Shown here piece after piece: positions 134 through 14,613 of a stretch of 45,710 nucleotides of DNA. This stretch comes from Streptosporangiales bacterium (GTDB lineage Bacteria > Actinomycetota > Actinomycetes > Streptosporangiales > WHST01): NCBI GenBank assembly GCA_009379825.1, contig WHTA01000047.1, forward strand, positions 1-45,710, given 5' to 3'. The notes under the pieces were generated by a model. The model was not told where the DNA came from, did not search any database, and was given only the letters and a program-made list of their open reading frames with translations. The translations under genes and the position numbers were made by a program. How positions within the stretch are numbered: position 1 is the first letter of the stretch; every line of letters begins with the position of its first letter.

Positions 134-147
134 CTAGGGCGCCCTAG
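134..147. repeat. Perfect 14-bp palindrome at the transposase/ubiX junction
   Basis: CTAGGGC followed directly by GCCCTAG. It lies 16 bp after the transposase stop and overlaps the ubiX stop codon (144-146, minus strand). It could be part of the IS end or a target-site feature. It has no spacer, so it is not a good terminator hairpin. Confidence 0.5.
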
Positions 148-767
148 TCGGTCTGGCCGTTGCGGTGGATGCGGGCGCGTTTGGCGGCGTCCTGGCCGCC
201 GAGCCAGCGCTTCACCACGCTCGAGTCGAGGTCGAAGAGGTCGAGTACGCGACCCACCGTCTGGTTGACGATGTCGTCGACGGTCTGCGGGTGGTTGTAG
301 AACGCGGGCACCGGTGGTACGACGATGCCGCCGGCCTCGGTCACCTGGGTCATCAGCCGCAGGTGGTTGAGGTGGAACGGGGTCTCGCGTACCACCAGCA
401 CCAGGCGCCGGCGTTCCTTCAGCACGACGTCGGCGGCGCGCGTCACGAGGTTCTCGTCGTAGCTGTTCGCGATGGCCGACAGCGACTTGATGCTGCAGGG
501 TGCCACCACCATGCCGTCGGTACGGAACGAGCCGCTGGAGATCGACGCCGCCAGGTCGTTGTCGCGGTGCACGACGTCGGCCATCTCGGTCAACTCGTCG
601 GGGTCGAGCACGGTCTCGTACGCGAGCGTCTTCCGCGCGCCGGCGGTGATGATGAGGTGGGTCTCCACGTCGGGCATGTCGCGCAACAGCTCTACGGTGC
701 GGGCACCGTAGATCGTGCCCGACGCACCGGTGATCGCGACGATGATCCGCTTGCGCGGGTCGGTCAT
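144..767 (-). CDS. ubiX: UbiX/Pad1-family flavin prenyltransferase
   Basis: This 207-aa protein has the family's usual length and motifs: the N-terminal FMN-binding loop ITGASGTIYG (residues 13-22), the central APCSIKSLSAIANSYDENL block, and the KERRRLVLVVRETPF segment that holds the conserved Arg/Lys/Glu of the prenyl-transfer site. UbiX enzymes attach a dimethylallyl group to FMN to make prenyl-FMN, the cofactor of UbiD decarboxylases. It is the last gene of the minus-strand block. Its ATG lies inside the end of the flavin reductase gene (4-nt overlap) behind a GAGGTGACACC ribosome site. No UbiD gene is present in the window, so its partner lies elsewhere or it has another role in this pathway. 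Confidence 0.9.
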   Translation of the reverse strand: MTDPRKRIIVAITGASGTIYGARTVELLRDMPDVETHLIITAGARKTLAYETVLDPDELTEMADVVHRDNDLAASISSGSFRTDGMVVAPCSIKSLSAIANSYDENLVTRAADVVLKERRRLVLVVRETPFHLNHLRLMTQVTEAGGIVVPPVPAFYNHPQTVDDIVNQTVGRVLDLFDLDSSVVKRWLGGQDAAKRARIHRNGQTD

Positions 768-1261
768 GGTGTCACCTCGTTCAGCGACCAGAGGTGGCCG
801 TCGTAGTGCACCAGGGCCCGGTCGTCGGTGGTCAGCAGTGTCGACACTACGTTGCCCACCACGATGTCATGCCCACCGAACGGATGGATATCGCGCACCT
901 CACACTCGAAGTTCGCGACACAGCCGGTGAGCAGGGGCACACCGAGCCGCTCCCCGCGCGTGTGGTCGACGCCCTCGAACCGGTCACCAGGCACCCGAGA
1001 CTTCGACGCGAACTTCTTGACGTAGCCGACCTGGCCGTCGGCGAGCACGCTCACCCCGAACACCCCGGTCGCCGCCACCAGCTCGCGGGTGCGGCCGGCG
1101 ACCTTCAACGTGGTCAGCAACAACGGTGGGTCCGCGTGTTCCGCCCACGCCATCCCCGTCGAGCCGTGCGGGTGCTCGCCGTCGAGCGTTGTGACGATGG
1201 CGACGGCGACGGCCAGCCGGCCGAAGCCCACGGTCGCCCGCTCGGCCTCGGACTCAGGCAT
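764..1261 (-). CDS. Flavin reductase-like FMN-binding protein (HpaC type)
   Basis: 165 aa, starting at ATG 1261 (MPESEAE). It shows the split-barrel flavin reductase pattern: AVAIVTTLDGEHPHGSTGMAW near the N-terminus, a GVFGVSVLADGQ block, GDRFEGVDH in the middle, and the C-terminal GHDIVVGNV plus YDGHLWSL. Such proteins reduce free FMN or FAD with NAD(P)H for a partner monooxygenase, here most plausibly the HpaB-type enzyme at 9758. It overlaps the upstream GntR gene by 8 nt and the downstream ubiX by 4 nt, so the three are probably co-translated. A second, different reductase sits at 11233. Confidence 0.85.
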   Translation of the reverse strand: MPESEAERATVGFGRLAVAVAIVTTLDGEHPHGSTGMAWAEHADPPLLLTTLKVAGRTRELVAATGVFGVSVLADGQVGYVKKFASKSRVPGDRFEGVDHTRGERLGVPLLTGCVANFECEVRDIHPFGGHDIVVGNVVSTLLTTDDRALVHYDGHLWSLNEVTP

Positions 1262-1949
1262 CGGTGGTCTTCTCCGCCGCTTCCTGCTCGAGCACCTCGA
1301 GCGCAGCACTCGCCGCCTTGTCCACGTGCGCGCGGGAGAGCCGCCGCGCGGCCGCCGCGTCGCGGCGCATGATCGCGTCGACCACCTGTCGTACCTCGTC
1401 GGCGACCTCGTCCGGCCGCCTCGGCCGCCGCAGCGACGTGGACCGCGGGTACGCGATCCGCCCCCACAGCGACTCGAGCACCCGCCGCACCACGACGTTG
1501 CCAGAACCCTCGAGCAGGACGTCGTAGAAGTCGTCCTTGCGCACCACGATCTCGGCGACGTCGCCGCCCCGGACGACCCGTTCGAACTCGTCGACGGCCT
1601 CGGCCAGCCGGGCCAGCTGCTCGTCGGTCGCGTGTTCCGCGAACCTGCCGACGACCAGCGACTCGAGCACGCCGCGCACCTCGTAGATGTCACGTGCCTC
1701 GGCCACGGACATACTCGCCACGACCGGCCCCTGGTTGGGCACCAGGTCGACCAGGCCTTCGCTCTCCAGCTGCCGTAGTGCCTCCCGGACCGTGGTGCGG
1801 CTCACCTTGGTCAGCTCGCACAGCTCGCGCTCCACCAGCCGCTGGCCGGGCTTGAAGGTGCGGTTCAGGATCGCCTCCCGCAGGTTGCGCACCACCTGGG
1901 TACGCAACGGCGCCGCCACCGCGGCGACGCGCAGATCCCCGGTAGCCAC
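1254..1949 (-). CDS. GntR-family regulator, FadR/FCD subfamily
   Basis: 231 aa. The chosen start is GTG 1949, because AGGAGG lies 8 nt upstream of it; the frame remains open further upstream without such a site. Residues about 12-80 form a winged helix (REAILNRTFKPGQRLVERELCELTKVSRTTVREALRQLES, written here only as landmarks R24 to S63), followed by an all-helical FCD ligand domain (EARDIYEVRGVLE onward). In the FCD domain the usual FH motif reads FY (KDDFYDVLLEGSGN), so one metal-binding His may be absent. It probably represses the island and responds to a pathway acid; the motif at 6588-6604 and 12728-12744 fits the FCD-type half-site rule. Confidence 0.85.
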   Translation of the reverse strand: MATGDLRVAAVAAPLRTQVVRNLREAILNRTFKPGQRLVERELCELTKVSRTTVREALRQLESEGLVDLVPNQGPVVASMSVAEARDIYEVRGVLESLVVGRFAEHATDEQLARLAEAVDEFERVVRGGDVAEIVVRKDDFYDVLLEGSGNVVVRRVLESLWGRIAYPRSTSLRRPRRPDEVADEVRQVVDAIMRRDAAAARRLSRAHVDKAASAALEVLEQEAAEKTTDA

Positions 1950-2052
1950 GTCCCTCACCTCCTCGTGCGGTACAACACCAGATCCGCCGGCATCACGCGG
2001 CGACACGTCAATGATCCCAGCCCGCTCCCCCGCGGCCACCGGTCAGGTGGTG

Positions 2053-2757
2053 TCATTGGTTCGCCTGGCGCCAGGAAACCAGCTCGCGCACCCCGTACGC
2101 GGCCCGGTCCACTGGCGGCACCTGGCCGACCTCGTGGAGGAACGTCTTCGCCCGGCTCAGCCCGCTCGCCGGCGCAGCGCGCAGCCCGGCCACCACGTCG
2201 GCGGCGACCGCGTCCAGCTCGGCGTCCGGCACGACCCGGCTGACCATGCCCATCGCGAGCGCCTCCGCGGCGCCGACGTGCCTGCCGGTCAGCACCAGGT
2301 CGAGCGCGGCCTTGCGCGGCAGGTAGTCGGCGAGGAACGTCTCCACCACCAGCGGCGGGAAGCCGTGCGTGATCTCGTCGAACCCGAACGTCGCGTCGTC
2401 GCTGGCCAGCGTGATGTCGGTGTGCATGGCGAGCCCGCTGCCGAACCCCAGCGCCCGCCCGCGTACCAGGCCGACGGACACGCCGCCGTAGCCGTCGAGC
2501 AACCCGTTGACCTCGGTGATGAGCGTCAGGTTGTCGGCCAGCGACACCCCTTCGGGTTTCTCCCTCTGGTCGCGGCCGAGGCAGAAGTCCGCACCTTCCG
2601 CACCTAGCACGAGCACGTCGGCTGAGCCCGCCTCGGTGAGCGCGGCGATGAGCTGCCGCATCATCGCGTACGTCACCTTGTTCTGCTCGCTCGCGCGATC
2701 GAGGGTCACGTACGCCACCGGACCGTCGCGCTCGACCCTTACCAGCTGCTCCGTCAT
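2053..2757 (-). CDS. Enoyl-CoA hydratase/isomerase (crotonase) family protein
   Basis: 234 aa, starting at ATG 2757, which overlaps the stop of the molybdenum-hydroxylase large subunit by 4 nt. Crotonase-fold landmarks are present: VAYVTLDR at the N-terminus, GADFCLGRD (oxyanion-hole strand), VGLVRGRALGFGSGLAM and the DITLASDDATFGFDEITHGFPP block (first oxyanion and catalytic-loop regions). It would act on a CoA thioester formed later in the degradation pathway, or catalyse a ring-opening or hydration step. It is somewhat shorter than classic hydratases (about 260 aa). The 103-bp gap to the GntR gene holds only the GntR ribosome site. Confidence 0.85.
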   Translation of the reverse strand: MTEQLVRVERDGPVAYVTLDRASEQNKVTYAMMRQLIAALTEAGSADVLVLGAEGADFCLGRDQREKPEGVSLADNLTLITEVNGLLDGYGGVSVGLVRGRALGFGSGLAMHTDITLASDDATFGFDEITHGFPPLVVETFLADYLPRKAALDLVLTGRHVGAAEALAMGMVSRVVPDAELDAVAADVVAGLRAAPASGLSRAKTFLHEVGQVPPVDRAAYGVRELVSWRQANQ

Positions 2758-5189
2758 CGAGGCACCTCTCTCCCGATCTGCTCCCTGGGGAGCTGGGACC
2801 ACACGATCTCCGGCTGCAGCGGCAGCCGGTCGATGCGGCCACCGAGGTGCCTGACGGCGTCCTCGACGGCATTCGCCAGGCACGGCACGGGCGTCACCGT
2901 CCCGGTCTCGCCTGCACCCTTGTAACCGCCCGGCGTGAACGGGTTCGGCGTGATGATGTGTTCGAGCGTCAGCGGCGGCATGTCCGCCGCCGTGGGGATC
3001 AGGTACTCGCGGAAGTTCCGGTTCAGCGGCTGCCCGTCCGGCGCGTAGCTGAACTGCTCGAACAGCGCACCGCCGAGGCCGTGCGCGAGCGCACCGAGGT
3101 GCTGGCCCTCCACGATCTTCGGGTTCAGGTGGTTGCCGCAGTCGTGCACGCTGACGTACGTGAGGATCTGCAGCCTCCCGGTCTCCTGGTCGATCTCCAC
3201 CACGGCACCGTCGGCCGAGTACGGGAAGCTGGAGAACATCGCCACCCGGCCGCGCTCGTCGGCGGGGAAGTCGACGTTCGGGTCGCGGTAGTGGTACAGC
3301 ATCTCCAGGCCGGGATCCTCGTCCTGCGGCAGGTCGTGGATGCGGTGGTACGCCACCCGCGCGAGGTCGCGCACGGTGATCGCCGTACCCGCACCGCCTG
3401 CGGTGCCCCTGACCCGCGCCTGCCCGGCCGTCAGGTCGAGGTCGGCGGCGTCTGCTTCGAGCAGGTGCGCGGCGATCCGCTTCAGCTTCGTGGCCATCTT
3501 CCGGCTCGCCATGGTGACCGCCGACGTCCCCACGACGGAGAACCTGCTGGAGTACGATCCGGAGCCGTACGGCGTGTGGTCGGTGTCGCCTTCCACCACG
3601 CGTACGGCGTCCGGGTGGATGCCGAGCTCGTCCGCGACCAGCTGCGCGATGGTCGTCGAGTGGCCCTGCCCCTCGTCGCTGCCGCCGGTCGCTACGAGCA
3701 CCTGCCCGGCCGGGTCCATCGCCACGCGCACGCTGTAGTAGCCGTTGTTGTACGAACCCATCCGGGTGGACGACGACGGCTCGATGGCAAGGATGGTGCC
3801 GATACCGAGCAGCCGACCTTCCGCGCGCGCCGCCTGCTGCCGTTCACGCCAGCCGTCGTAGTCGAGCAGCTCGGCCAGCCGCTGCATGGCCTCCGGGTAG
3901 TTGCCGCTGTCGTAGCGCGAGCCGGTGGCGCACTCGTAGGGGAACTCCTCGGGCGGGATGAAGTTGCGCATCCGCACCTCGACCGGGTCGAGACCGAGCG
4001 CGGTGGCCGCCTCGTCCATCATCCGCTCGATGCAGTACGCCGCCTCGGACTTGCCGAAGCCGCGGTGCGCGCCGAACGGGGTCTTGTTCGTCGCGATGCC
4101 GAAGAGGTCCGCCTGGTAGTTCTTGATCTTGTACGCACCTGGCACGAACATCGGGGTGGTGACGATCGACGCGAGCCCGCCCACCGGGTACGCGTCGCCG
4201 AGGTCGGCGTAGATGCGGTCGCGCAGACCGACGATGGTGCCGTCGTTCTTCAGCGCCATGCCGACGTGGTGGATCTGCTCGCGCGCGTGGTTGGTGGCCA
4301 GCATGTGCTCGCGGCGGGTCTCGATCCACCGCACGGGCCGCCCGGCAGCCATCGCCGCGACCGGCACCACCAGCTCCTCCGGGTAGAAGCCCCACTTCTG
4401 CCCGAAGCCGCCACCGACGCGCGGCGTGATCACCCGCACCGACACCGCGGGGTCGGCCTTGATGCTGTTCTCCAGCAGCACGCCGACGGCGTGCGCGATC
4501 TGGCTCGACGTCCAGACGGTCAGCGTGTTCGCCGCCTCGTCGTAGTCAGCGACCACGCCGCGCGGTTCGATGGGTGTGCCGCTGAACCTGTGGTGCCGCA
4601 ACGTTCGCTCGACCACCACGTCGGCGTCGTCGAACGCCGCGTCCACGTCACCTGACGACACCTCGAACCGCAGCGTGACGTTGTCGTCCCACTCCTCGTA
4701 GAGCCTGGGCGCGTCGTCGGCTGCGCCCTCCTCGGCGTCGAGCACCGGCGGGAGCACCTCGTACTCGGCGTCGACGAGCTCGAGCGCATCCTCCGCGACG
4801 TACCTGTCGGTCGCGACGAGCAGTGCCACGGCCTCGCCGACGTAACGCACCTTGTCCTTCGCCAGCCCGACCCGGTCGGCGAACTTGATCGCCGGGTTCC
4901 CGCCACGGAACGGGTTGCGGCTCTGGAACGGGAACGGCTGCATCGCGTGCACGCGGCTGGTCAGGTCGTCCGCAGTGATGCCGAGCACGACGCCGGGCAG
5001 TGCCAGCGCGCGTTCCAGCGACAGCCGCGTGATCCGCGCGTGCGCGTGCGGGCTGCGGTAGAAGACGCCGTAGAGCATGCCGGGCAGCCGCACGTCCCCG
5101 ACGTACGTGCCCTCGCCGCGCAGCAGCTCGCGGTCGCGGACGCGTGGCAGGCTCTGCCCTACGGCGGGCGCCGTCTCAGGTGCCGTCAT
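2754..5189 (-). CDS. Molybdenum hydroxylase large (molybdopterin-binding) subunit, xanthine dehydrogenase/CoxL superfamily
   Basis: 811 aa. The N-terminal a/b hammerhead domain (about 20-130) begins with the QSLPRVRDRELLRGEGTYVGD pattern (residues 12-32), followed by the molybdopterin-binding domains: GGGFGQK near 265, GAHRGFGKSE near 375, DEGQGHSTT near 505 and the catalytic-Glu motif GYKGAGETGT (Glu761). It hydroxylates an aromatic or N-heterocyclic carbon using water. The CO dehydrogenase active-site loop (AYxCSFR) is absent, so it is not a form I CODH. It overlaps the 2Fe-2S gene by 14 nt and the hydratase gene by 4 nt. No molybdenum-insertion accessory genes (XdhC or CoxDEF type) occur nearby. 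Confidence 0.92.
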   Translation of the reverse strand: MTAPETAPAVGQSLPRVRDRELLRGEGTYVGDVRLPGMLYGVFYRSPHAHARITRLSLERALALPGVVLGITADDLTSRVHAMQPFPFQSRNPFRGGNPAIKFADRVGLAKDKVRYVGEAVALLVATDRYVAEDALELVDAEYEVLPPVLDAEEGAADDAPRLYEEWDDNVTLRFEVSSGDVDAAFDDADVVVERTLRHHRFSGTPIEPRGVVADYDEAANTLTVWTSSQIAHAVGVLLENSIKADPAVSVRVITPRVGGGFGQKWGFYPEELVVPVAAMAAGRPVRWIETRREHMLATNHAREQIHHVGMALKNDGTIVGLRDRIYADLGDAYPVGGLASIVTTPMFVPGAYKIKNYQADLFGIATNKTPFGAHRGFGKSEAAYCIERMMDEAATALGLDPVEVRMRNFIPPEEFPYECATGSRYDSGNYPEAMQRLAELLDYDGWRERQQAARAEGRLLGIGTILAIEPSSSTRMGSYNNGYYSVRVAMDPAGQVLVATGGSDEGQGHSTTIAQLVADELGIHPDAVRVVEGDTDHTPYGSGSYSSRFSVVGTSAVTMASRKMATKLKRIAAHLLEADAADLDLTAGQARVRGTAGGAGTAITVRDLARVAYHRIHDLPQDEDPGLEMLYHYRDPNVDFPADERGRVAMFSSFPYSADGAVVEIDQETGRLQILTYVSVHDCGNHLNPKIVEGQHLGALAHGLGGALFEQFSYAPDGQPLNRNFREYLIPTAADMPPLTLEHIITPNPFTPGGYKGAGETGTVTPVPCLANAVEDAVRHLGGRIDRLPLQPEIVWSQLPREQIGREVPR

Positions 5190-5688
5190 CGTCGGCTCCC
5201 TCCCGCCGGGACGTCGCCGCCTGCACGGCGTCCACGATCGACTCGTACCCGGTGCAGCGGCAGAGGTTGCCGACCAGCCCGTTCCTGATCTGGTCGCGGG
5301 TCGGGGTGCCGCCGCGTTCGTAGATGGCCAGCGACGACATCAACATGCCTGCGGTGCAGTACCCGCACTGGAAGGCGAACTCGTCCTCGAAGGCCTGCTG
5401 CAACGGGTGGAGCGCACCACCGGGCGCGGCCACGCTCTCCACCGTGCGGATGGCCGCGCCCTCGGCCTGGACGGCGAACAGCGTGCACGACTTCACCGGC
5501 CGGTCGTCGAGCAGCACGGTGCAGGCGCCGCAGCTGGTGCTGTCGCAGCCGATGTGCGTGCCGGTCAGGCCCACCCGCTCACGGATGGCGTCCACCAGCA
5601 GGGTGCGCGGCTCCACGTCGACGCGGTGGTCGGTGCCGTTGACGCGCAGCACCACCTGTCTGGCTGCGGCGCTGGGTTCGCTGCTCAT
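5176..5688 (-). CDS. Molybdenum hydroxylase 2Fe-2S subunit
   Basis: 170 aa, starting at ATG 5688 (ATGA overlap with the FAD-subunit stop). Plant-type ferredoxin cysteines are at 48, 53, 56 and 68 (GCDSTSCGACTV), and the second helical [2Fe-2S] cluster has C108, C111, C143 and C145 (QCGYCTAGM and NLCRCTGY). This is the standard small subunit of XDH, nicotinate dehydrogenase and CO dehydrogenase type enzymes, passing electrons from the Mo site to FAD. The subunit order FAD, Fe-S, Mo is that of the cox/qor/nicotinate dehydrogenase clusters. Confidence 0.95.
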   Translation of the reverse strand: MSSEPSAAARQVVLRVNGTDHRVDVEPRTLLVDAIRERVGLTGTHIGCDSTSCGACTVLLDDRPVKSCTLFAVQAEGAAIRTVESVAAPGGALHPLQQAFEDEFAFQCGYCTAGMLMSSLAIYERGGTPTRDQIRNGLVGNLCRCTGYESIVDAVQAATSRREGADDDGT

Positions 5689-6548
5689 CCGGCCTCCTCG
5701 CCGTCGTCGGTCGCGCGGGCCCTGGCGGCGGCATCGCGCAGCGCGTCGCGCACCAGCCGGCCGAGCACCGACCGCCGGTAGTCGGGATCGCGGCCGCGTA
5801 CGATCGCCGCGACCTCGTCCAGCAACGCCTCGTCGAACCACTGCCCGTGTACGGCCTGCTCCACCGCGTCCAGGCGCACCGGGTGCCCTGCCAGGCCCAC
5901 CGCGGCGACCCCGGCGGCGAGGACCTGGTCGGTGTCCGGGTCGAGCTCCAGGCACACGGCGCAGCTCATCAACGCCGCACCGGCTCGCTGCTCGAACTTC
6001 GCCTGGGCGGTACCGAACCGCCCGCCAGGCACGGGGACGCCGACCTCGGTGAGCAGCTCGTCGGGGCGCAGCGAGCTGGTGTGCGTCGCGACGAACAGGT
6101 CGTCCGCGGCGATCGTCCGCTGCCCTGCGCCGGCCCGCGCGACCACCTCACCGCGGACGGCGAGCAGCGCAGCGCCCCAGTCCCCCGTCGGTTCGACGGC
6201 CGCCAGCGAGCCGCCGACCGTACCCATGTTGCGCACCTGCGGGTCGCCGATCCGGCCGGCCAGCTCCGCGACCATCGCGAGCCCGGCGTGCCCGCACCAC
6301 TGGGCTGCCTCCGCGTGCCTGGTCAAGGCACCGATGCGGAGCACGCCGGCGTCCAGGGTCAGACCCGCGAGGTCGCGCAGGCCGCCGATGTCCACGACGA
6401 CCGCGGGGCCGCGCTGCCGGTACTTCAGCTGCGGCACGAGGCTCATCCCGCCGGCGAGCACGCCGGCGTCCGAGCCGTGCTCGGCCAGCAGGTCGAGCGC
6501 TTCGTCGACGGTGTGCGGACGTGCGTAGGCGAATGCGCGTGGATACAT
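5685..6548 (-). CDS. Molybdenum hydroxylase FAD-binding subunit (CoxM type)
   Basis: 287 aa. The two FAD motifs of the family are present: AGGMSLVP at 32-39 (usual AGGQSLxP) and TVGGSLAAVEPTGDW at 110-124 (usual TIGG...ADPAxD). The C-terminal CO dehydrogenase flavoprotein domain follows from about residue 175. It is the first gene after the 95-bp promoter region at 6549-6643 and is translationally coupled to the Fe-S gene by ATGA. Its own promoter would let the hydroxylase and downstream genes be expressed separately from the upstream MarR part of the block. Confidence 0.93.
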   Translation of the reverse strand: MYPRAFAYARPHTVDEALDLLAEHGSDAGVLAGGMSLVPQLKYRQRGPAVVVDIGGLRDLAGLTLDAGVLRIGALTRHAEAAQWCGHAGLAMVAELAGRIGDPQVRNMGTVGGSLAAVEPTGDWGAALLAVRGEVVARAGAGQRTIAADDLFVATHTSSLRPDELLTEVGVPVPGGRFGTAQAKFEQRAGAALMSCAVCLELDPDTDQVLAAGVAAVGLAGHPVRLDAVEQAVHGQWFDEALLDEVAAIVRGRDPDYRRSVLGRLVRDALRDAAARARATDDGEEAG

Positions 6549-6643: not shown

Positions 6644-7168
6644 TCAGCGACCGAGGTAGAACGAGAAGATACGCAGCGCACCGTCGCGTTCGTCGTCGGT
6701 CAGCTCGCGCTGGAACAGATCCACGTGCTGCCGTACGTCGGCGTCGACACGGGCAAGCAGCTCGCGGCCGGCCGCGGTGATGGTGACCTTCGTGACCCGC
6801 CGGTCGTGCTCGCCGGGCACCCGGTCGACCAGCCCGCGCTCCACCAGGCTCTTGATCAGGCGCGACGCCAGCGCCGAGGAGATGTCCAGCCGGTCCGCCG
6901 CGGCGTAGACGGACAGCGGCGCGTCCGGAGCGCCGAGCACCTGGATGAGCAGCTTGTGCTCCAGCGGCTCGAGGCCGGCCTTCTTCGCCTGCTCGTCGAC
7001 CAGCCGGAAGACCTTGCGGATCACCCGGTGCGCCTCGGCGATGCCGCCGAAGTAGCCACGGAACTCGGGGCTGTCGACGGACCGTCCCTGCGCGTCCTTG
7101 CCGGCGGGCCTCGACCGGCTCGCGCGGCGTCCGGTCGCCTTCGTCGCAGAACTCCGCTTCTCGCTCAC
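6644..7168 (-). CDS. MarR-family transcriptional regulator
   Basis: 174 aa. The start is GTG 7168, which overlaps the upstream gene's stop as GTGA. A basic, Ser/Arg/Lys-rich leader of about 35 residues precedes the winged-helix domain: LEPLEHKLLIQVLGAP, then DRLDISSALASRLIKSLVERG (recognition helix region), then the wing VPGEHDRRVTKVTIT. MarR proteins respond to aromatic acids and usually bind short palindromes; the 31-bp palindrome at 9702-9732 is a candidate target. The long basic N-terminal tail is not part of the core fold. Confidence 0.88.
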   Translation of the reverse strand: MSEKRSSATKATGRRASRSRPAGKDAQGRSVDSPEFRGYFGGIAEAHRVIRKVFRLVDEQAKKAGLEPLEHKLLIQVLGAPDAPLSVYAAADRLDISSALASRLIKSLVERGLVDRVPGEHDRRVTKVTITAAGRELLARVDADVRQHVDLFQRELTDDERDGALRIFSFYLGR

Positions 7169-7812: not shown

Positions 7813-8981
7813 GCGCCCGCCCCGGTCACGGTCACCGGCTTGCTCGCCGGCGGGGTGTTCCTGCTCCTCGTGAAACGCACCTCGCCGGCGGTGATCGACA
7901 CCGCGACGGCAGGCAGGTCGCCGTTGTCCAGGGCCGTGAACGCGTCGGACGTACTCCCGCCGACGGGTGCGTCCACGACGAGCAGGTCGGCCGGCCGACC
8001 GACCTCCAGCCGGCCCGCGTCGAGCCCGTAGACGTCGGCGACGTTGCCGGTCGCGGCCGTCACCACCTGCCGCGCCGACAGCTCGGACAGCGAGGCCAGC
8101 TCGGCCATCTGCCGCAGCATGCCGAGGGAGATGACGCCCGTGCCGGTAGGGGTGTCGGTCGCGATCAGCAGCCGCTCGAACGCACCGGCGCCAAGCGCCC
8201 GGTTGGCGATGTCGATGGCCGACCGCAGGTTGCCGGCCTGCACGAGCTGCAGCGCGATGCCGTCGCCCTCGTCCACGAGCCGCGCGTTCTCCTCCAGGTC
8301 GAGCGCGGTCGGGCCGCCGTTGACGTGCCCCGAGATGTTCGGACGCATGGCCAGCACGGCGTCGGCGGAGATCTTCGACAGGCTGCCGGGGATGGAGCCG
8401 CCGCCGGTATGTGCCATCACCACGAGTCCGGCCTCGCGCGCAGCGCGCACGACCGGTACGTAGTCCATCGGCGTGCCGAACGCGCCGAAGCCGGCCTTCG
8501 CCAACCAGACGCCGGCGGCCTTCAGCTCGGCGAAGTCGTCCGCCGTCAGGCCGGGTTCCAGCACGACGGAGCCGGCGTGCACAGTGATGCCCGACGGCCG
8601 GTAGTCGGCGAAGCAGCGCTGGGCTGCAACGGCCAGAGCCTTGATCCCCACGACGTCCTTCGGCCGGCCAGGCACGTGCACCTCGCTCGCGGAGATCACG
8701 CGCGTCGTGCCACCGTGCAGGTAGCTGTCGAGAAAGCCGATCATGCCCTGGCGCGGCGTGTAGTCACCGAACGTGGTGTGGACGTGCGAGTCGATCAGGC
8801 CGGGGACGACCGCCGCGCCCGCGACGTCGACCACGCACTCGTGGTCGCCCGCCGTGACGGCGCCTGAGTCACCGATCCACGCGACCTGGCCGCCGTCGAG
8901 GACGAGCGCGTCGCCGGGCAGCGGTGCACCGTCGGTGGCACCGGAATGGGAGTCCCCGATGTTCACCAGCGCTGTGGTCAT
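7809..8981 (-). CDS. Enamidase-like metal-dependent amidohydrolase
   Basis: 390 aa. Amidohydrolase-superfamily metal motifs are visible: DSHVHT (H66, H68), AHTGGGSIPG (H191), GHVNGGPTA (H219) and ATDTPTGTG (D276). The long stretch from HTGG to the C-terminal SRNTPPA closely resembles, as I recall it, the enamidase of Eubacterium barkeri nicotinate fermentation, which hydrolyses 6-oxo-1,4,5,6-tetrahydronicotinate to 2-formylglutarate. I infer hydrolysis of a cyclic enamide or lactam formed after the molybdenum hydroxylase step. It starts at ATG 8981, overlapping the 39-aa gene upstream, and its stop overlaps the dimeric-barrel gene. Confidence 0.75.
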   Translation of the reverse strand: MTTALVNIGDSHSGATDGAPLPGDALVLDGGQVAWIGDSGAVTAGDHECVVDVAGAAVVPGLIDSHVHTTFGDYTPRQGMIGFLDSYLHGGTTRVISASEVHVPGRPKDVVGIKALAVAAQRCFADYRPSGITVHAGSVVLEPGLTADDFAELKAAGVWLAKAGFGAFGTPMDYVPVVRAAREAGLVVMAHTGGGSIPGSLSKISADAVLAMRPNISGHVNGGPTALDLEENARLVDEGDGIALQLVQAGNLRSAIDIANRALGAGAFERLLIATDTPTGTGVISLGMLRQMAELASLSELSARQVVTAATGNVADVYGLDAGRLEVGRPADLLVVDAPVGGSTSDAFTALDNGDLPAVAVSITAGEVRFTRSRNTPPASKPVTVTGAGA

Positions 8982-9097
8982 CGCATCCCTTCACCGGCGA
9001 CACCGGCCGGTGCGTAGTCGTCGACCTCGATCGCATCGTCCCACACGATGTCGGCGTCGAGCTCGATCTCTGTTGGTTCGGCGAGCAGAGCACTCAT
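8978..9097 (-). CDS. 39-aa acidic small protein, coupled on both sides
   Basis: ATG 9097 overlaps the stop of the PF06684 gene (ATGA at 9097-9094), and its own TGA (8980-8978) overlaps the amidohydrolase ATG at 8981. The peptide begins MSALLAEPTEIELDADIVWD and ends GVAGEGMR. It carries 11 Asp/Glu against one Arg and no Lys. It has no signal peptide or membrane segment. No family is recognised. The exact nesting between two coupled genes is good evidence that it is translated; it may be a subunit, an adaptor or only a coupling device. Confidence 0.65.
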   Translation of the reverse strand: MSALLAEPTEIELDADIVWDDAIEVDDYAPAGVAGEGMR

Positions 9098-9666
9098 CGC
9101 ACACCATCCCCTACCGCGTCTTCGAGACTGAGGCCACCAACCCGGTGATGCACCCTGCCGCCACTGGACAGCACGATGGCCACGACGATCTCGGCCGGAC
9201 GCGGCGCGTCCGCGATGCAGAGCGTCATGGCGTCGTAGTGCGAGCGCACGAACAGCGCGTCCTTGTAGGCGAGCGGGATGTCCAGCGCGGTGCCGGCGGC
9301 TCCGACCTTCGTGGCCGAGCTCACCCAGGCCGCACCACCGCCCACGCCGGCGCGCAGGGCGTCACCGAACGGCGTGGTCAGGCACGCCACCCCGTGTTCC
9401 TGCTCGCCCGAGGTGCCGACGATGGCGCCCTTGCCGTAGCCCTCGGCGCGGCCGCCGAGCAGCTCGATGCCCTGCCGGGTGAGCTCCGCGCCCAGCTCCG
9501 CGCTCGGCCCGATGAGCTCGGCGAGATCCGCCGCGTAGCCGTCGGCGTACAGGTTCGCGATCACCGCCGCGACGACTGCCTTGCGCAGCGGTACCGCGGC
9601 GACCGGCCCGCCGTCGTGGCTGATCTCCTCCACCGCATGGAACCGCTTGCGGATCTGGTAGGCCAC
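9094..9666 (-). CDS. PF06684 (DUF1185, 'amino acid synthesis') family protein
   Basis: 190 aa with a GTG start at 9666 behind GGGAGGTGCA. Family landmarks: GYGKGAIVGTSGEQEHG (about 76-92), a GVGGGAAWVSSATKVG loop, VRSHYDAMTLCIADAPRP and the C-terminal GGRVHHRVGGLSLED. Structures of this family show a chorismate-mutase-like variant fold; the reaction is not established as far as I know. It heads the minus-strand block, directly next to the divergent promoter shared with the HpaB gene, so it likely acts on a pathway intermediate. Confidence 0.85.
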   Translation of the reverse strand: MAYQIRKRFHAVEEISHDGGPVAAVPLRKAVVAAVIANLYADGYAADLAELIGPSAELGAELTRQGIELLGGRAEGYGKGAIVGTSGEQEHGVACLTTPFGDALRAGVGGGAAWVSSATKVGAAGTALDIPLAYKDALFVRSHYDAMTLCIADAPRPAEIVVAIVLSSGGRVHHRVGGLSLEDAVGDGVR

Positions 9667-9689: not shown

Positions 9690-9738
9690 TTGACCACGAG
9701 TAGATGACAAAAGTAATTTACAAAAGTCATCTAATCAA
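9690..9738. promoter_or_regulatory. Divergent promoter with a 31-bp palindromic operator
   Basis: The palindrome at 9702-9732 has outer arms AGATGAC/GTCATCT and a central GTAATTTAC, both centred on 9717; the AAAA stretches between them do not pair. It also holds a direct repeat of ACAAAAGT. Plus-strand promoter: TTGACC (9690-9695), 18-bp spacer, TAATTT (9714-9719). Minus-strand promoter: TTGATT (9738-9733), 17-bp spacer, TACTTT (9715-9710). Both -10 elements lie inside the palindrome, so one bound protein could control both directions. Confidence 0.65.
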
Positions 9739-9757: not shown

Positions 9758-11233
9758 ATGCGCAGCGGTGTCGAGTACGTCGAGGGCCTACGCGACGGCA
9801 GGAGCGTCTACATCGACGGCGAGCGCGTCTCCGACGTCACCACACACCCCGCGTTCCGCGGCGCGGTGCGTTCGGTCGCACACCTGTACGACTTCGCGTC
9901 GGACCCCGCGAACCGTGAGGTGATGACGTACACCTCGCCGGAGACCGGCAACGCGCACAACGTCGCCTTCCTCCTCCCCCACAGCACCGAGGACCTCGCC
10001 AGGCGCCGCCGTGGCCTGCGGCTGTGGGCGGAGCAGACGTACGGCCTGATGGGCCGCTCCCCCGACCACGTCGCGGGCTTCCTCACCGGTTTCGCCGCGG
10101 CACCGCACGTCTTCGACGGCGACTTCGCCGCCAATGTGGTGAACTTCCACAGGTACGCGGCGGAGAACGACATCTACGCCGCCTACACGATCGTGCCGCC
10201 GCAGATCGACCGCGGCAAGCCGGCACACCAGCAGGCCGACCCGCACCTGTACGCCGGCGTCAAGGAGGAACGCGACGGCGGCATCGTGATCAAGGGCGCG
10301 CAGATGCTCGGCACCGGCGCGGTGCTCGCGGACTGGATCCAGCTCAGCAGCATCGTGCCGCTGCGCCCCGGCGACGAGAACTACGCGATCTCCGTCGTCG
10401 TGCCGGTCTCCGCGCCCGGCGTGAAGATCTTCCCGCGCCGGTCGTACGCGCACGCCGCGACCAGCAGCTACGACTACCCGCTAGCAAGCCGGTTCGACGA
10501 GACCGACTCGCTGGTCGTGTACGACGACGTGTTCGTCCCCTGGGAACACGTCTTCGTCTACCGCGACCTCGACCGGGTGCAGGCGCAGTGGTGGCAGACG
10601 CCGGCCTGGCTGCTCGGCAACCTGCAGGCGCAGGTCCGGTTGGCCACCAAGCTCGACCTGCTCACCGGCGTCGCTGCCAAGGTGGCCGCGATGAACGGCG
10701 TGGACAAGCTGCCCCCGGTGCAGGGCACCCTCGGCGAGCTCGCCGCGCACGCGACGATGACCAACGGTCTCGTCCTCGCCGCCGAGTACGACTGCGAACT
10801 GGACGACAACGGCGTCGCCTGGCCGGGTAGCGCGCTCACGTTCGCGAACACCACGCTGCAGCCGGAGATCTACGGCAAGCTGCTGCACCTGGTACGTGAC
10901 CTGTGTGGCGGTGGGCTGATCCAGCTGCCGGCGACGGTGAACGACCTGCGCGACCCGGAGATCGCCGAGCAGCTCGGCCGCTACGTCCAGTCGCCGGGCA
11001 CGCCGATGCCGGAGCGGGTCAAGCTGCTCAAGCTCGCCTGGGACCTGGTGGGTTCGGAGTTCGCCAGCCGGCACCACCAGTACGAGATGTTCTACGCGGG
11101 TGCGCCGTTCGTGGTGAAGATGCGGATGGCGAACAACTACGACTTCGACATGGCAACCGGGCTGGTGGACTCCGCACTGGCCGGCTACGGGGTGTACAGC
11201 GACAACGAACCCGAGGCGACGGCGGTGGTCTGA
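9758..11233 (+). CDS. HpaB-family flavin-dependent monooxygenase (4-hydroxyphenylacetate 3-hydroxylase-like)
   Basis: 491 aa from ATG 9758 (MRSGVEYVEGLRDGR). An upstream in-frame ATG at 9704 lies inside the operator and is rejected. The N-terminal RDGRSVYIDGERVSDVTTHPAF (residues about 10-31), the middle VNFHRYAAENDIYAAYTIVPPQ region and the C-terminal GSEFASRHHQYEMFYAG are typical of HpaB-type FADH2-dependent oxygenases. Members hydroxylate phenols, and relatives attack pyrrole or other heteroaromatic rings. It is followed by a flavin reductase overlapping by 1 nt (TGATG), so this is a two-component system. The substrate is inferred to be a hydroxylated ring from the adjacent pathway. Confidence 0.9.
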   Translation: MRSGVEYVEGLRDGRSVYIDGERVSDVTTHPAFRGAVRSVAHLYDFASDPANREVMTYTSPETGNAHNVAFLLPHSTEDLARRRRGLRLWAEQTYGLMGRSPDHVAGFLTGFAAAPHVFDGDFAANVVNFHRYAAENDIYAAYTIVPPQIDRGKPAHQQADPHLYAGVKEERDGGIVIKGAQMLGTGAVLADWIQLSSIVPLRPGDENYAISVVVPVSAPGVKIFPRRSYAHAATSSYDYPLASRFDETDSLVVYDDVFVPWEHVFVYRDLDRVQAQWWQTPAWLLGNLQAQVRLATKLDLLTGVAAKVAAMNGVDKLPPVQGTLGELAAHATMTNGLVLAAEYDCELDDNGVAWPGSALTFANTTLQPEIYGKLLHLVRDLCGGGLIQLPATVNDLRDPEIAEQLGRYVQSPGTPMPERVKLLKLAWDLVGSEFASRHHQYEMFYAGAPFVVKMRMANNYDFDMATGLVDSALAGYGVYSDNEPEATAVV

Positions 11234-11766
11234 TGACGGCAGGCGGTCAGGTGCCCGAGCAGGGCCAGTTCCGGGAGTCGATGTCGCTGCTCGCGGTCGG
11301 CGTGACCATCGTGACGACGACCACGCCGACCGGTCCCGCCGGCATGACCGCCTCCGCCGTCTGCTCGCTGTCGCTCGAACCGCCCCAGCTGCTCGCCTGC
11401 ATCCAGCGCTCGCTGCCGACCCACCGGGCGCTCGGGGACAGCGGGAGCTTCGCGGTGAACGTACTCGGCGAGGAGCACGTCGAGCTGGCCAGGAGGTTCG
11501 CCACGTACGGCGCCGACCGGTTCGCCGGCGTGCCACTCGTCACCCGGCAGCCGCCCGTGCTCTCCGCCGCTATCGCGTACTTCAGCTGCACGGTCGTGGA
11601 GAGCCATCCGGGCGGCGACCACTCCATCTTCGTCGGCACGGTCACCGAATGCGGGCACCAACCCGGCCGACGCCCGTTGCTCTACTTCGACCGGCGGTTC
11701 GGCGCGCTCGAGGCACCCGAGGACCAGCTGCTCAAGTCGTGGTCCGCCACCGGGCCGTTGGTGTGA
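11233..11766 (+). CDS. Flavin reductase, partner of the HpaB-type oxygenase
   Basis: 177 aa starting at ATG 11233 within the TGATG overlap. It has the flavin-reductase pattern: FRESMSLLAVGVTIVTTTTP, the FMN-contact segment GMTASAVCSLSLEPP, GSFAVNVLGEEH, DRFAGVPLV and the C-terminal GDHSIFVGTV followed by LLYFDRRFG. It should supply FADH2 or FMNH2 to the oxygenase encoded just upstream. It is clearly distinct from the reductase at 764-1261, whose sequence differs at almost every variable position, so the two may serve different oxygenases. Confidence 0.9.
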   Translation: MTAGGQVPEQGQFRESMSLLAVGVTIVTTTTPTGPAGMTASAVCSLSLEPPQLLACIQRSLPTHRALGDSGSFAVNVLGEEHVELARRFATYGADRFAGVPLVTRQPPVLSAAIAYFSCTVVESHPGGDHSIFVGTVTECGHQPGRRPLLYFDRRFGALEAPEDQLLKSWSATGPLV

Positions 11767-11770
11767 GATG

Positions 11771-12682
11771 TCAACCCACCGCTACCGCATCGGGCGTCAG
11801 GCCGGCGTCGGCGAGGAACCGGCCGATCGCCGCGTCGTCCGCCTCGGCGACCGGCTCGAACGGCGGCAGGCCGACGCCGATGTCGATGCCGAGGTGTCGC
11901 ATGGCGCACCGCATGACGGGCGTCAGCCCGTACGCCGACCAGCGGCTGGGGAACTCCGCGAACACCGCCTGCGCAGTGCGGGCGGCGGCGATGTCGCCGG
12001 CGTCGAAGGCCCGCAGTACGCGACTGCCGAGCAGCGTCGCGGGTGCCGGCATCATGGCGCCCGAGCCACCCTGCAGCAGCGTGGCGAGCAGCGGCTGCAT
12101 GGTCGTCAGGTACCGCGCGTTGCCGGCCAGGTCGATCTCCGCGATGAGCCTGCCGATGCGCGACATGTCGCGCGAGCTCTCCTTGAACCCCACGACGCCG
12201 TCCAGCTCGCTGATCCTGATCAGCGCCTGCACAGAAGGGTCGGAGCCGCGCGACGGGTTGTGGTAAACCACCACCGGCAGCGGGCTCACCTCCGTGACCC
12301 GCTCGAAGTACGTCACCACCTCGCGGACGCTGGCTTCCGGCCCCCACGGCCGCTTCGGCAGCAGCACCTGGACGTACGTGGCGCCGGCGTCGGCGGCGAG
12401 CTCGGCCAGCTCGGCCACCTCGGCGATCCGCGCACTCGAGGCACCGGCGAGCACCGGCACCCGACCAGCCACGGCCGCGATGCCGTGCCGCAGCCAATGC
12501 CTGCGGTCGACATCGGAGAGCAACCGGTACTCGGAGACCTCGGCGCCGAGCACCGAGATCGCATCGCAGTGGCCGGCCATGAAGTCGAGCTCGCGTGCGA
12601 GCGCCGTCTCGTCCACCCGACCGTCGGGCGCGAACGGCGTCAAACAGGCACCAACCACACCGCGCAAAGTGTCGACACCCAC
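11771..12682 (-). CDS. DHDPS/N-acetylneuraminate lyase family aldolase or lyase
   Basis: 303 aa from GTG 12682, chosen because AGGAGG lies 5 nt upstream; the frame is open to 12772 but those 30 codons cross the promoter. Schiff-base residues are present: VVVYHNPSRG (Tyr140) and GVVGFKESS (Lys167). The usual GGTTGE/GGSTGE loop reads VLGAEVSEY, so it is not an ordinary DapA. Such class I lyases cleave or form C-C bonds of 2-oxo acids. It converges on the flavin reductase gene (4 bp apart) and is divergent from the GlcG-like gene, so it probably handles a pyruvate- or semialdehyde-yielding step. Confidence 0.85.
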   Translation of the reverse strand: MGVDTLRGVVGACLTPFAPDGRVDETALARELDFMAGHCDAISVLGAEVSEYRLLSDVDRRHWLRHGIAAVAGRVPVLAGASSARIAEVAELAELAADAGATYVQVLLPKRPWGPEASVREVVTYFERVTEVSPLPVVVYHNPSRGSDPSVQALIRISELDGVVGFKESSRDMSRIGRLIAEIDLAGNARYLTTMQPLLATLLQGGSGAMMPAPATLLGSRVLRAFDAGDIAAARTAQAVFAEFPSRWSAYGLTPVMRCAMRHLGIDIGVGLPPFEPVAEADDAAIGRFLADAGLTPDAVAVG

Positions 12683-12715
12683 CAGGGCCTCCTGAACAGC
12701 GGTCGAATTCACCCC

Positions 12716-12744
12716 ATGACAAAGAGATTGTATGACCGTATTAT
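12716..12744 (+). promoter_or_regulatory. Promoter with operator-like motif for the GlcG-like gene and transporter
   Basis: ATGACA (12716-12721), 17-bp spacer and -10 TATTAT (12739-12744). TTGTATGACCG immediately precedes the -10 and fits the FCD-GntR half-site rule yGTM-N-KACy in full. About 15 of 19 positions agree with the minus-strand promoter at 6588-6604, which suggests one regulator for both units. Confidence 0.5.
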
Positions 12745-12771
12745 AGGCCGCACGCAGAGGAGGATCGGCCA

Positions 12772-13215
12772 ATGTTGACCACCCGCCGCTTGGATATCGC
12801 GGACGCCAGATGCATTCTGCGCGGCGCGGCAGAGCACGCCGACCGTATCGGGGTGCCGATGTGCAGCGCAGTGGTCGACGACGCGGGCGTCCTCATCGCG
12901 TTCGAACGTCTCGACGGCGGCAAGGTCTCCAGTGTCGCGATCGCGATCGACAAGGCCTTCACCGCGGCCGCAGCGCGGAACACCACCGCTTTCTACGGCG
13001 ACGACGCCAACCCGAACAGTCCCGGATGGCGGATCAGCGGTACGAACGGCGGGCACTTCTCCACCATCGGCGGCGGCATCCCCGTCGTCGTCGACGGCGC
13101 GGTGGTCGGGGGCATCGGAGTGAGCAGTGGCACCGCCACGCAAGACGTCGAGGTAGCCGAAGCGGCACTCGACTACTTCCTACGCGAGTCACCCCTCGGC
13201 TCGCCGGCTCACTGA
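12772..13215 (+). CDS. GlcG/HbpS-like (DUF336) protein
   Basis: 147 aa from ATG 12772 behind AGAGGAGG. It contains the family's MCSAVVDDAGVLIAFERLDGG (about 30-50), SVAIAIDKAFTAAAARNTT and the GGGIPVVVDGAVVGGIGVSSGT motif (about 99-120) followed by DVEVAEAAL. GlcG/HbpS-type proteins bind haem or small ligands, and many members sit in aromatic or glycolate catabolic clusters without a proven role. There is no signal peptide, so it is cytoplasmic. It is followed after 60 bp by the MFS transporter and probably shares its transcript. Confidence 0.88.
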   Translation: MLTTRRLDIADARCILRGAAEHADRIGVPMCSAVVDDAGVLIAFERLDGGKVSSVAIAIDKAFTAAAARNTTAFYGDDANPNSPGWRISGTNGGHFSTIGGGIPVVVDGAVVGGIGVSSGTATQDVEVAEAALDYFLRESPLGSPAH

Positions 13216-13275
13216 GCCGTTCCCTCACCCAACCGTCCGACGACCTCACACGAACAAGGCGGGTGCAGTCGGGAA

Positions 13276-14613
13276 ATGAACGTCGAAAACCCTACGAACA
13301 GACCCAGTGCAGGACAGCAAACGAGCACCGGCGTCTCACGCAGCGACAGGCGCAATGGCTTCATCGCCGCATGGTTCGGCTGGTGTCTCGATGGTTTCGA
13401 GACCTACGTCGCCGTCCTCGTCGGCCAGCAGGTCGTCGCCGGTTTGGTCGGGCCCGACGCCTCGGCGTTGTACTTCGCCGGCATCCTCGCGGTGACGCTG
13501 GTCGCCTGGGCAGTCGGCGGCATGGTCTCCGGTGTCCTCGCCGACTACTTCGGGCGCAGGCGCGTCCTGATGTTCTCCATCATCTGGTACGCGGCGTTCA
13601 CCGGACTCACGGCGTTGGCGCCGAACTACTGGTTCTTCATCGCGTTCCGCTTCCTCACCGGGCTCGGCATGGGCGCGGAGTGGGCGCCGGGGGCGGCGCT
13701 GGTCTCCGAGATGTGGAAGGACAAGAGCCGCGGCCGGGGCATCGCGTTCCTGCAGGGCGGCTTCGGCGTCGGCTTCCTGCTGGCGACCGCGGTGTGGATC
13801 TTCGTCCAGGGCGGCCCGGGCTCGTGGCGCTACATGTTCCTGATCGGCGTGCTGCCGGCAGTGCTGGTGCTGTTCATCCGCAGGTACGTCAGGGACCCGA
13901 AGCTGTGGACCGACGCCGACGACGCGCGCCGCGCAGCCCGCAAGCGGCGCCGTGAGGGCACCGAGCTCAGCGACGCCGACAAGGCACTCACCAGGTTCAC
14001 CGTCGCGCACCTGTTCCACGAGCCGATCCTGCGCCGACGCATCTTGATCCTGCTCGTGCTCGCCACGACGACTCTCGGCGGCTGGTGGGCGGTCTCTACC
14101 TGGGTGCCCCAGTTCGGCGCGGCCATGGCCGCCGAGAACGGACTCGACCCGGTGGCCACTGCGACGTCCACGGCGTTCTGGTACAACGTCGGCGGCATCA
14201 TCGGCTACTTCTCGATGGGCTTCCTGAACGACTTCTTCGGCCGAAGACCGACGATGTTCGCGTACTTCATCGGTGCGCTGGTGATGAACGTGGTGCTGTT
14301 CATGTTCGCCACACCGGCGACCCTCTTCATCGCGGCCGCGGCGAACGGGGTCTTCACGCTCGGCCTGTTCACCTGGATGGCGACCTGGCCGGTCGAGCTG
14401 TTCCCCACCCACGTGCGCGGCACGGCGATCACCATCGTGTTCAACTCGACCAGGATCATCGTGGCGGCGGCCACGATGGTCTCCGGCCTCCTCGTGAACG
14501 CGTTCGGCGCAGTGAGCACCGCAGCGCTGGTGATCGGGATGATCTACATCCTCGGCCTGGTGTTCACCTTCCTCGCCGGGCCGGAGACGAAGGGCAAACC
14601 GCTGCCCAGCTGA
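13276..14613 (+). CDS. MFS transporter, aromatic acid/sialate-type H+ symporter
   Basis: 445 aa with about 12 predicted hydrophobic segments. MFS signatures: DYFGRRRVLMFS in the loop between TM2 and TM3, RFLTGLGMGAEWAPGAALVSE in TM4, and the second-half copy DFFGRRPTMF. The segment GWCLDGFETYVAVLV in TM1 (Asp in the FDGFD-like site) resembles the acidic motif of aromatic-acid and sialate symporters. It is likely the importer for the island's growth substrate. The start has only a weak ribosome site (GGGAA); a later start is possible. It is followed by a strong hairpin. Confidence 0.88.
   Translation: MNVENPTNRPSAGQQTSTGVSRSDRRNGFIAAWFGWCLDGFETYVAVLVGQQVVAGLVGPDASALYFAGILAVTLVAWAVGGMVSGVLADYFGRRRVLMFSIIWYAAFTGLTALAPNYWFFIAFRFLTGLGMGAEWAPGAALVSEMWKDKSRGRGIAFLQGGFGVGFLLATAVWIFVQGGPGSWRYMFLIGVLPAVLVLFIRRYVRDPKLWTDADDARRAARKRRREGTELSDADKALTRFTVAHLFHEPILRRRILILLVLATTTLGGWWAVSTWVPQFGAAMAAENGLDPVATATSTAFWYNVGGIIGYFSMGFLNDFFGRRPTMFAYFIGALVMNVVLFMFATPATLFIAAAANGVFTLGLFTWMATWPVELFPTHVRGTAITIVFNSTRIIVAAATMVSGLLVNAFGAVSTAALVIGMIYILGLVFTFLAGPETKGKPLPS

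Follow-up and report, generated by a model that had tools for sequence, protein, structure and literature searches.

A conserved gene island pairing an enamidase relative with a PF06684 protein, probably for N-heterocycle catabolism, in a Streptosporangiales bacterium

Overview

A conserved block of about 16 genes in a Streptosporangiales bacterium probably serves the catabolism of an N-heteroaromatic carboxylic acid by hydroxylation and subsequent hydrolysis, with no ring-cleaving dioxygenase. The block, hereafter the island, lies at positions 144-14613 of the window, i.e. the whole 45,710-nucleotide stretch of contig WHTA01000047.1. Its core is an enamidase-related amidohydrolase (ENA) beside a PF06684 protein. 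More tentatively, bacteria and at least one archaeon may share, in ENA and PF06684, a widespread and unnamed module for opening N-heterocyclic rings. The second enzyme of this module would be PF06684, dedicated to deaminating or tautomerising the opened enamine. Different hydroxylases, namely HpaB, FAD monooxygenase, Rieske or molybdenum (Mo) enzymes, would combine with the module, so that hydroxylation and then hydrolysis would form a general alternative to ring cleavage by dioxygenases.

Structures of PF06684 proteins have been solved since 2007-2008 without an assigned function. Strict adjacency to ENA, together with minimal operons on plasmids and the sharing of an operator-like site, now makes the family part of a testable two-enzyme hypothesis. 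If the hypothesis is true, dioxygenase-free opening of N-heteroaromatic rings would be common in soil and marine bacteria. Furthermore, many clusters whose annotation goes no further than 'amidohydrolase' and 'amino acid synthesis family protein' could then be recognised as pathways that degrade N-heterocycles of natural or pollutant origin.

Extent and gene content of the island

The whole island is syntenic in a genome of the same genus (G149), with protein identities of 63-85%, and in a second such genome (G150) it is present in synteny as far as the contig end. By this synteny, positions 144-14613 are one unit, and the conserved gene order in both genomes means that the arrangement is more than chance. 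In G149, the island holds a 4.5-kb insertion with UbiD and an ABC importer, and the full order is still kept. An acetone-carboxylase-like operon at 15495-21273 was ruled out as a part of the island, as it is missing from that place in both genomes. Pfam scans of the translated genes recovered every family that the initial annotation had listed; a GntR/FCD regulator (1254..2039, minus strand; PF00392, PF07729; 76% identity to G149), a MarR-family regulator and an operator-like palindrome had escaped it. The complete set was seen in the source genus only, and the unit that is widely conserved is smaller. A characterised cluster of the same make-up was not found in the open-access literature.

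The genes from UbiX to the FAD subunit of a Mo hydroxylase (MoM) are tightly packed on the minus strand. The UbiX-family flavin prenyltransferase (144..767; PF02441, 2.8e-44; 81% identity to G149) scores above the cut-off of NCBIfam NF004685; the UbiX product, prFMN, is supplied to UbiD. It is followed by a second flavin reductase, FR2 (764..1246; PF01613, 7.6e-30; 69% identity to G149), and, beyond the GntR gene, by a crotonase/enoyl-CoA hydratase family protein (2053..2760; PF00378, 4e-26; 63% identity to G149). Next come the large subunit (2754..5189; PF20256, PF02738; 85% identity to G149), the [2Fe-2S] subunit (5176..5691; PF01799, PF00111; 77% identity to G149) and the FAD subunit (5685..6548; PF00941, PF03450; 59-64% identity to G150/G149) of this Mo hydroxylase, which belongs to the xanthine-oxidase family by its three subunits with MoCo, FAD and [2Fe-2S] domains. 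The solved structures nearest to the large subunit are CoxL (8uem), quinoline 2-oxidoreductase (1t3q) and 6-hydroxypseudooxynicotine dehydrogenase (7dqx). With 607 bits against 950 and 544 against 991, it falls below the NCBIfam cut-offs for aerobic CO dehydrogenase, and its translation lacks CSFR, the motif of form I CO dehydrogenases. The MarR-family regulator (6644..7165, minus strand; PF12802; 69-80% identity to G150/G149), whose start codon is uncertain, follows.

On the plus strand, an HpaB-type oxygenase component (9758..11233; PF11794, 1.3e-95; PF03241) adjoins its flavin reductase partner FR1 (11233..11766; PF01613, 2.5e-41; 66-70% identity to G150/G149), whose ATG overlaps the HpaB stop codon; together they have the make-up of a group D two-component flavin monooxygenase. 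The HpaB reading frame is open from 9704 and traverses the operator-like site, and a start there was dropped in favour of the ATG at 9758, which is conserved in three species. HpaB shares the fold family and two-component arrangement of the HpaB/HpaC 4-hydroxyphenylacetate 3-hydroxylase, but it lies below the NCBIfam equivalog cut-offs (335 vs 480.2 bits for TIGR02309, 329.6 vs 885.2 bits for TIGR02310). Moreover, of the phenol-binding residues Arg100, Tyr104 and His142 (T. thermophilus numbering), only Arg100 is kept; Y104 is replaced by His and H142 by Tyr. Every ENA-linked HpaB in the alignment shows this swap, as does an unlinked paralogue.

The remaining genes on this side encode a DHDPS-family lyase/aldolase of uncertain start codon (11771..12706, minus strand; PF00701, 4.3e-27; 69-70% identity to G150/G149), which stays under every NCBIfam cut-off, and two plus-strand products. 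One is an HbpS/GlcG-like protein (12772..13215; PF03928, 5.8e-32; 84-85% identity to G150/G149), with counterparts of 58-61% identity beside ENA in two Rhodobacteraceae loci (L060, L076). The other is an MFS importer resembling aromatic-acid:H+ symporters (13276..14613; PF07690; 69-74% identity to G150/G149), for which TIGR00895 is the best match, below its cut-off. No dioxygenase family occurs among the Pfam hits of the island, which sets it apart from hydroxypyridine pathways of the NicX or maleamate type.

The ENA-PF06684 pair

ENA (7809..8981, minus strand) is a full-length homologue of the E. barkeri enamidase 2vun, with E=1.3e-98 over residues 3-382 and 43% identity. The HxH motif of the E. 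barkeri metal site is kept and Glu164 is replaced by Lys, as in 81 of 83 aligned ENA sequences, the window's included. Judged by the superfamily pattern, position 164 would be the bridging ligand. Additionally, Gln replaces the first metal His in 26 of the 83 relatives, and hence the metal site of ENA is not fixed.

The adjoining PF06684 (DUF1185, AA_synth) protein (9094..9666, minus strand; 1.3e-61) scores 207.5 bits against a Pfam gathering score of 27. Its AF2 model (pLDDT 94.6) matches 3byq with Z 28.5 (rmsd 1.4, 188 aligned) and 2qtp with Z 21.3. Kinship with Rid deaminases or barbiturase was discarded, the matches reaching a Z of only about 5 (9bk9 5.7, 5hy1 5.3), below a meaningful level; a deaminase role is therefore suggested by gene context. 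On the other side of ENA lies a tandem dimeric alpha/beta-barrel protein of DUF4286/EthD-like type (7165..7812, minus strand; PF14114; AF2 pLDDT 95.2), whose model matches 2pgc (Z 20.1), the anthrone oxidase-like 5f9p (Z 17.4) and PenE (9kdp, Z 16.1).

In an unbiased draw of 149 genomes of the same phylum, PF06684 adjoins ENA in all nine that have a close enamidase relative (hypergeometric p ~1e-11). The pair is also found in Bacilli, Proteobacteria, Chloroflexi and one archaeon, and PF06684 lies within 300 bp of ENA in 47 of 80 named loci. Of the 60 ENA loci flanked on each side by 3 kb or more, 15 have no recognised PF06684, so its presence nearby is not always required. This recurring neighbourhood suggests a role for the PF06684 family. 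Neither rare co-occurrence nor a match to a characterised cluster with another substrate, which the initial annotation had named as grounds against its reading, was seen.

The hydroxylase beside the pair varies between HpaB, FAD monooxygenase (FAD_binding_3), Rieske and Mo enzymes. HpaB occurs in 18 of 80 ENA loci (about 0.13 expected from actinobacterial frequency), and the HpaB label forces at least eight changes on the ENA tree. A 2,6-dihydroxypyridine hydroxylase was considered and rejected as the identity of the ENA-linked FAD monooxygenase: among solved structures, PnpA and 6-hydroxy-3-succinoylpyridine 3-monooxygenase came closest to it. UbiD, isochorismatase, amidases and semialdehyde or other aldehyde dehydrogenases recur near the pair, one aldehyde dehydrogenase scoring above the cut-off for succinate semialdehyde dehydrogenase (SSADH). 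In five loci of other lineages (L053, L066, L068, L075, L080), Mo hydroxylase and UbiD flank the pair. Plasmid-borne minimal operons consist of a regulator, PF06684, ENA, a DUF4286 protein, an FAD monooxygenase and a transporter, with SSADH in one; they lack Mo hydroxylase and UbiD, and thus decarboxylation and Mo hydroxylation would not be universal steps.

The operator-like palindrome TAGATGACAAAAGTAATTTACAAAAGTCATCTA (9701..9733, 33 bp) lies in the divergent promoter region between PF06684 and HpaB. Its core is identical in G149 and has one mismatch in G150. With up to three mismatches, the genome itself holds three sites and the reversed control none. The two further sites stand before a UbiD gene and before an importer-UbiD-isochorismatase operon on another contig (C48). 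The MarR-family regulator is a candidate reader of the site in the island. Proteins of C48 and of G149 have counterparts of 44-61% identity in one Mesobacillus cluster that contains HpaB, ENA, the barrel protein and PF06684.

Proposed route and alternative readings

The reactions and their order, DHDPS-type cleavage included, are proposed here from gene content. The acid would be imported by the MFS carrier and the co-regulated NMT1/THI5-type ABC system, and its carboxyl group would be removed by the prFMN enzyme UbiD, served by UbiX. The Mo hydroxylase may then oxygenate the carbon next to the ring nitrogen to give a lactam, which HpaB with FR1 would hydroxylate further to a hydrolysable cyclic enamide or imide. 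The enamidase relative, aided by PF06684, would open the ring at a C-N bond, and the resulting enamine would be fully tautomerised or deaminated by PF06684 and perhaps by the barrel protein. Finally, an isochorismatase-type amidase, an aldehyde dehydrogenase and the DHDPS-type lyase may bring the fragment to central metabolism. As a guess, the substrate of the Mo-containing version is a pyridine carboxylate degraded via di- or trihydroxypyridine, with pyrrole-2-carboxylate as the main alternative. The N-heterocycle island of the initial annotation, with its hydroxylation, oxygenation and enamide hydrolysis, is supported by synteny, recurring ENA-PF06684 neighbourhoods and the relatives of the Mo hydroxylase. 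The reading as a whole holds in part, ENA being more than a plain copy of the E. barkeri enamidase.

Under the unlikely alternative that the substrate is pyrrole-2-carboxylate or has another five-membered ring, decarboxylation and hydroxylation would yield a pyrrolinone; ENA hydrolysis and deamination would turn this five-membered cyclic enamide into succinate semialdehyde, to be oxidised to succinate. The minimal operons, in which ENA, PF06684 and SSADH stand with a single monooxygenase, suit this route in carbon count and gene set; the semialdehyde dehydrogenases that recur are no worse a fit to a pyrrole-type substrate than to a trihydroxypyridine; and pyrrole-2-carboxylate decarboxylases are UbiD proteins, with UbiD and UbiX both present. 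However, the Mo hydroxylase of the island is closest, CO dehydrogenases aside, to enzymes of six-membered azaarenes, an electron-rich pyrrole is chemically an unlikely target for Mo hydroxylation, and the amidase and isochorismatase partners would be superfluous. It is rather improbable that independent operons merely stand side by side, with Mo hydroxylase, crotonase and UbiX serving a phenolic or CoA-linked aromatic and HpaB and ENA forming a unit of their own. Crotonase and UbiX are indeed rare in other ENA loci (5 and 3 of 80), and the surroundings of the C48 block include CoA ligases and a PaaA-like protein; against this stand the order kept in G149 despite the insertion, the close packing of UbiX to MoM, and the five loci in which Mo and UbiD flank the pair.

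The ring-opening chemistry itself deserves caution. KpiC belongs to the amidohydrolase superfamily and is 28% identical to enamidase; it is reported to cleave 3,4-dihydroxypyridine with O2 (PMC7356986), so hydrolysis by ENA is not a given. A KpiC-like ENA, acting as a dioxygenase on a dihydroxypyridine made by HpaB, would also accord with the variable metal site, but it is doubtful, since the window's ENA is far closer to hydrolytic enamidase than KpiC is and retains HxH with Lys at the usual bridging position. That the nicotinate pathway of E. barkeri is present here in aerobic form, with ENA hydrolysing 6-oxo-tetrahydronicotinate, is very improbable. The homology to 2vun and a Mo hydroxylase speak for it, yet the Pfam content of the island has no 6-hydroxynicotinate reductase-like protein, hydroxymethylglutarate dehydrogenase, B12 mutase or dehydratase, the metal-site Glu is a Lys, and HpaB depends on O2.

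Comparison with known systems

Hydroxylation followed by hydrolysis, the preferred reading, has partial likenesses elsewhere. The E. barkeri enamidase of nicotinate fermentation shares full-length homology and HxH with ENA, and a Mo hydroxylase occurs in both pathways; the island differs by Lys at Glu164, a PF06684 partner, an oxygen-dependent hydroxylase and the lack of the fermentation genes. In trigonelline degradation, the ring is opened by an oxygenase acting on an N-methylated pyridinium. The PF06684-type protein TgnF of that pathway in Acinetobacter baylyi is said, as quoted in PMC7913881, to stimulate succinate-semialdehyde oxidation by TgnE, and SSADH recurs near ENA-PF06684 as well; unlike here, the quoted account does not mention a relative of enamidase. 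The kpi cluster of Arthrobacter sp. IN13 for 4-hydroxypyridine, as far as the accessible text of PMC7356986 describes it, likewise employs a flavin monooxygenase and then ring opening by the amidohydrolase superfamily, but KpiA is a PF01494 rather than an HpaB-type protein, KpiC is oxygenolytic, and that text describes no Mo hydroxylase, UbiX or PF06684. BB2672 (3byq) and SPO0826 (2qtp), the PF06684/DUF1185 structures, share family and fold with the island protein; PMC2954203 assigns them no function and proposes amino-acid synthesis, whereas many PF06684 members are tied here to an enamidase relative.

Organization and conservation of the island

The probable catabolic island at 144-14613 lies where the window begins at an edge of contig C47, in a genome of 6.15 Mb assembled into 169 contigs. 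Pfam scans recovered all the gene families listed in the initial annotation, which had proposed an N-heterocycle degradation island here, along with two additional regulators, GntR and MarR. A minus-strand run with mostly overlapping gene ends extends from the PF06684 gene (9666) to UbiX (144), and HpaB and its reductase are read in the opposite direction from a divergent promoter. The end of the block (to 14613) is formed by a DHDPS-family gene, an HbpS/GlcG-like gene, and an MFS carrier.

The island is one unit. In G149, a relative of the same genus, gene order is identical at 63-85% identity, the sole difference being that G149 has genes for a UbiD decarboxylase and an ABC importer inserted between those for MarR and the FAD subunit. 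In the relative G150, the order is kept up to its contig end. Right of 14613, the genes differ among all three genomes, and the boundaries originally drawn are therefore correct. Further right, BKACE, acetone-carboxylase gamma, HyuB, and HyuA genes followed by a divergent cytosine/purine-type permease (15495-23215) may form another cluster, likewise uncharacterised, for lactam or carboxylation chemistry. Repeated CTACGCA/TGCGTAG half-sites occupy the intergenic stretch 21274-21625, and an AsnC regulator (23224-23829) adjoins the group.

The enamidase-PF06684 core pair

The enamidase-related amidohydrolase (ENA; 7809-8981, minus strand) and the PF06684 protein (9094-9666, minus strand) form the core pair. 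Of 149 genomes drawn evenly from the phylum, nine had a close enamidase relative (at least 46% identity) and 13 had PF06684; in all nine the two genes were neighbours (hypergeometric p 9e-12). A wider scan of 84,980 species genomes yielded 509 enamidase relatives. Among the best 80 of these 509, PF06684 was detected at 55 loci, at 47 of them within 300 bp, and the pairing spans Actinomycetota, Bacilli, Alpha-, Beta- and Gammaproteobacteria, Chloroflexi, and the archaeon Hydrothermarchaeum. Within the same best 80, PF06684 was not found in 15 of the 60 loci with enough flank; thus, the link is strong, not absolute. The window's genome holds another PF06684 gene at C36:31241-31759 (L002, L025), with no enamidase relative nearby.

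Variable partners of the pair

Neighbour genes of the ENA loci were clustered, and cluster representatives were scanned for families. Interchangeable ring hydroxylases surround the pair, namely HpaB (18 loci), FAD_binding_3 monooxygenases, Rieske oxygenases, and Mo hydroxylases, together with UbiD, isochorismatase, amidase, and aldehyde dehydrogenase (ALDH). The 18 HpaB loci compare with about 0.13 expected from the actinobacterial frequency, other phyla possibly having more HpaB. Well-supported branches of the ENA tree force at least eight changes in HpaB linkage, which was therefore gained or lost repeatedly.

Compact plasmid versions in Agrobacterium vitis and Mariluticola comprise a regulator, PF06684, ENA, a DUF4286 barrel protein, an FAD monooxygenase, and a transporter, and a Shinella plasmid carries the core pair with an amino-acid-type ABC importer. 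A marine core version (SAR116/Rhodospirillaceae-type; L068, L071, L075, L080, L088) contains Mo hydroxylase, UbiD, GST, crotonase, and TRAP/BCAA transporters; neither HpaB nor FAD monooxygenase was detected in the examined stretch of these loci, and Gln replaces the first metal His in their enamidase relatives.

A shared operator-like site

An operator-like site, TAGATGACAAAAGTAATTTACAAAAGTCATCTA, lies at 9701-9733 within the divergent promoter. Its 25-base core, at up to three mismatches, occurs only three times genome-wide (reversed control, 0). The remaining two sites are on contig C48, one before a UbiD gene and the other before an operon of an NMT1/THI5-type importer, UbiD, and isochorismatase. 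G149 has copies upstream of the island HpaB and of the gene orthologous to the first UbiD gene on C48. Moreover, its C48-like genes lie on the island's contig, after the UbiX end, so that C47 and C48 very probably adjoin in the window's genome, with C48 placed by this synteny at the left end of C47. A further catabolic block, C48:1-21992 (L111, L112), encodes a Mo hydroxylase, a PaaA-like protein, a crotonase, and two AMP-ligases, along with three UbiD proteins; the operator-like site precedes two of its operons.

In the Firmicute Mesobacillus, HpaB-ENA-barrel-PF06684 and isochorismatase, importer, and UbiD proteins, the latter three 44-61% identical to C48 or G149 counterparts, form a single cluster. 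This arrangement lends independent support to UbiD, amidase, and importer as probable pathway members.

Proposed pathway and substrate

From an N-heteroaromatic acid, hydroxylation by the Mo enzyme and by HpaB would yield a hydroxylated lactam, whose C-N bond the enamidase relative would hydrolyse. Deamination or tautomerisation may be completed by PF06684, and amidase, ALDH, and lyase would finish the carbon skeleton, with prFMN from UbiX presumably supplying UbiD. The barrel protein model folds like cofactor-free monooxygenases and isomerases, a likeness compatible with more than one role.

For the Mo-containing version, a pyridine carboxylate degraded via 2,6-dihydroxy- and 2,3,6-trihydroxypyridine is the favoured candidate substrate, because the Mo subunit resembles not only CO dehydrogenases but also two azaarene enzymes, quinoline 2-oxidoreductase and 6-hydroxypseudooxynicotine dehydrogenase, and because amidase genes are recurrent partners. 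The minimal operons with SSADH are consistent with pyrrole-2-carboxylate: one ALDH neighbouring ENA exceeds the SSADH cut-off, and SSADH also occurs in the compact Mariluticola version. The closest relatives of the ENA-neighbour FAD monooxygenase are PnpA and 6-hydroxy-3-succinoylpyridine 3-monooxygenase.

Comparison with known systems

ENA is related over its full length to the E. barkeri enamidase (PDB 2vun), but 81 of 83 aligned ENA sequences have Lys at the position of its Glu164, the residue expected from the superfamily pattern to bridge the metals; the first metal His is Gln in 26 of the 83. The enamidase of an archaeal ENA-ALDH-PF06684 set (Candidatus Hydrothermarchaeum profundi, L100) retains the E. 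barkeri-type Glu. The island HpaB scores under the 4-hydroxyphenylacetate hydroxylase cut-offs, and every aligned ENA-linked copy has His and Tyr swapped at two positions of the substrate site. Since a 51% identical paralogue with its own flavin reductase (C15:62712-64163, L113) shows the same swap and no enamidase linkage, the swap marks the HpaB subfamily, not the pathway.

A search of the accessible open literature turned up no characterised cluster with this gene content. PF06684 was previously known from structures (PMC2954203) and from two incidental mentions, HcdD and TgnF (PMC7913881); in the accessible parts of the open literature, these were the only prior knowledge found. The island would be a variant of known N-heterocycle catabolism, with the enamidase-PF06684 pair as its testable point.
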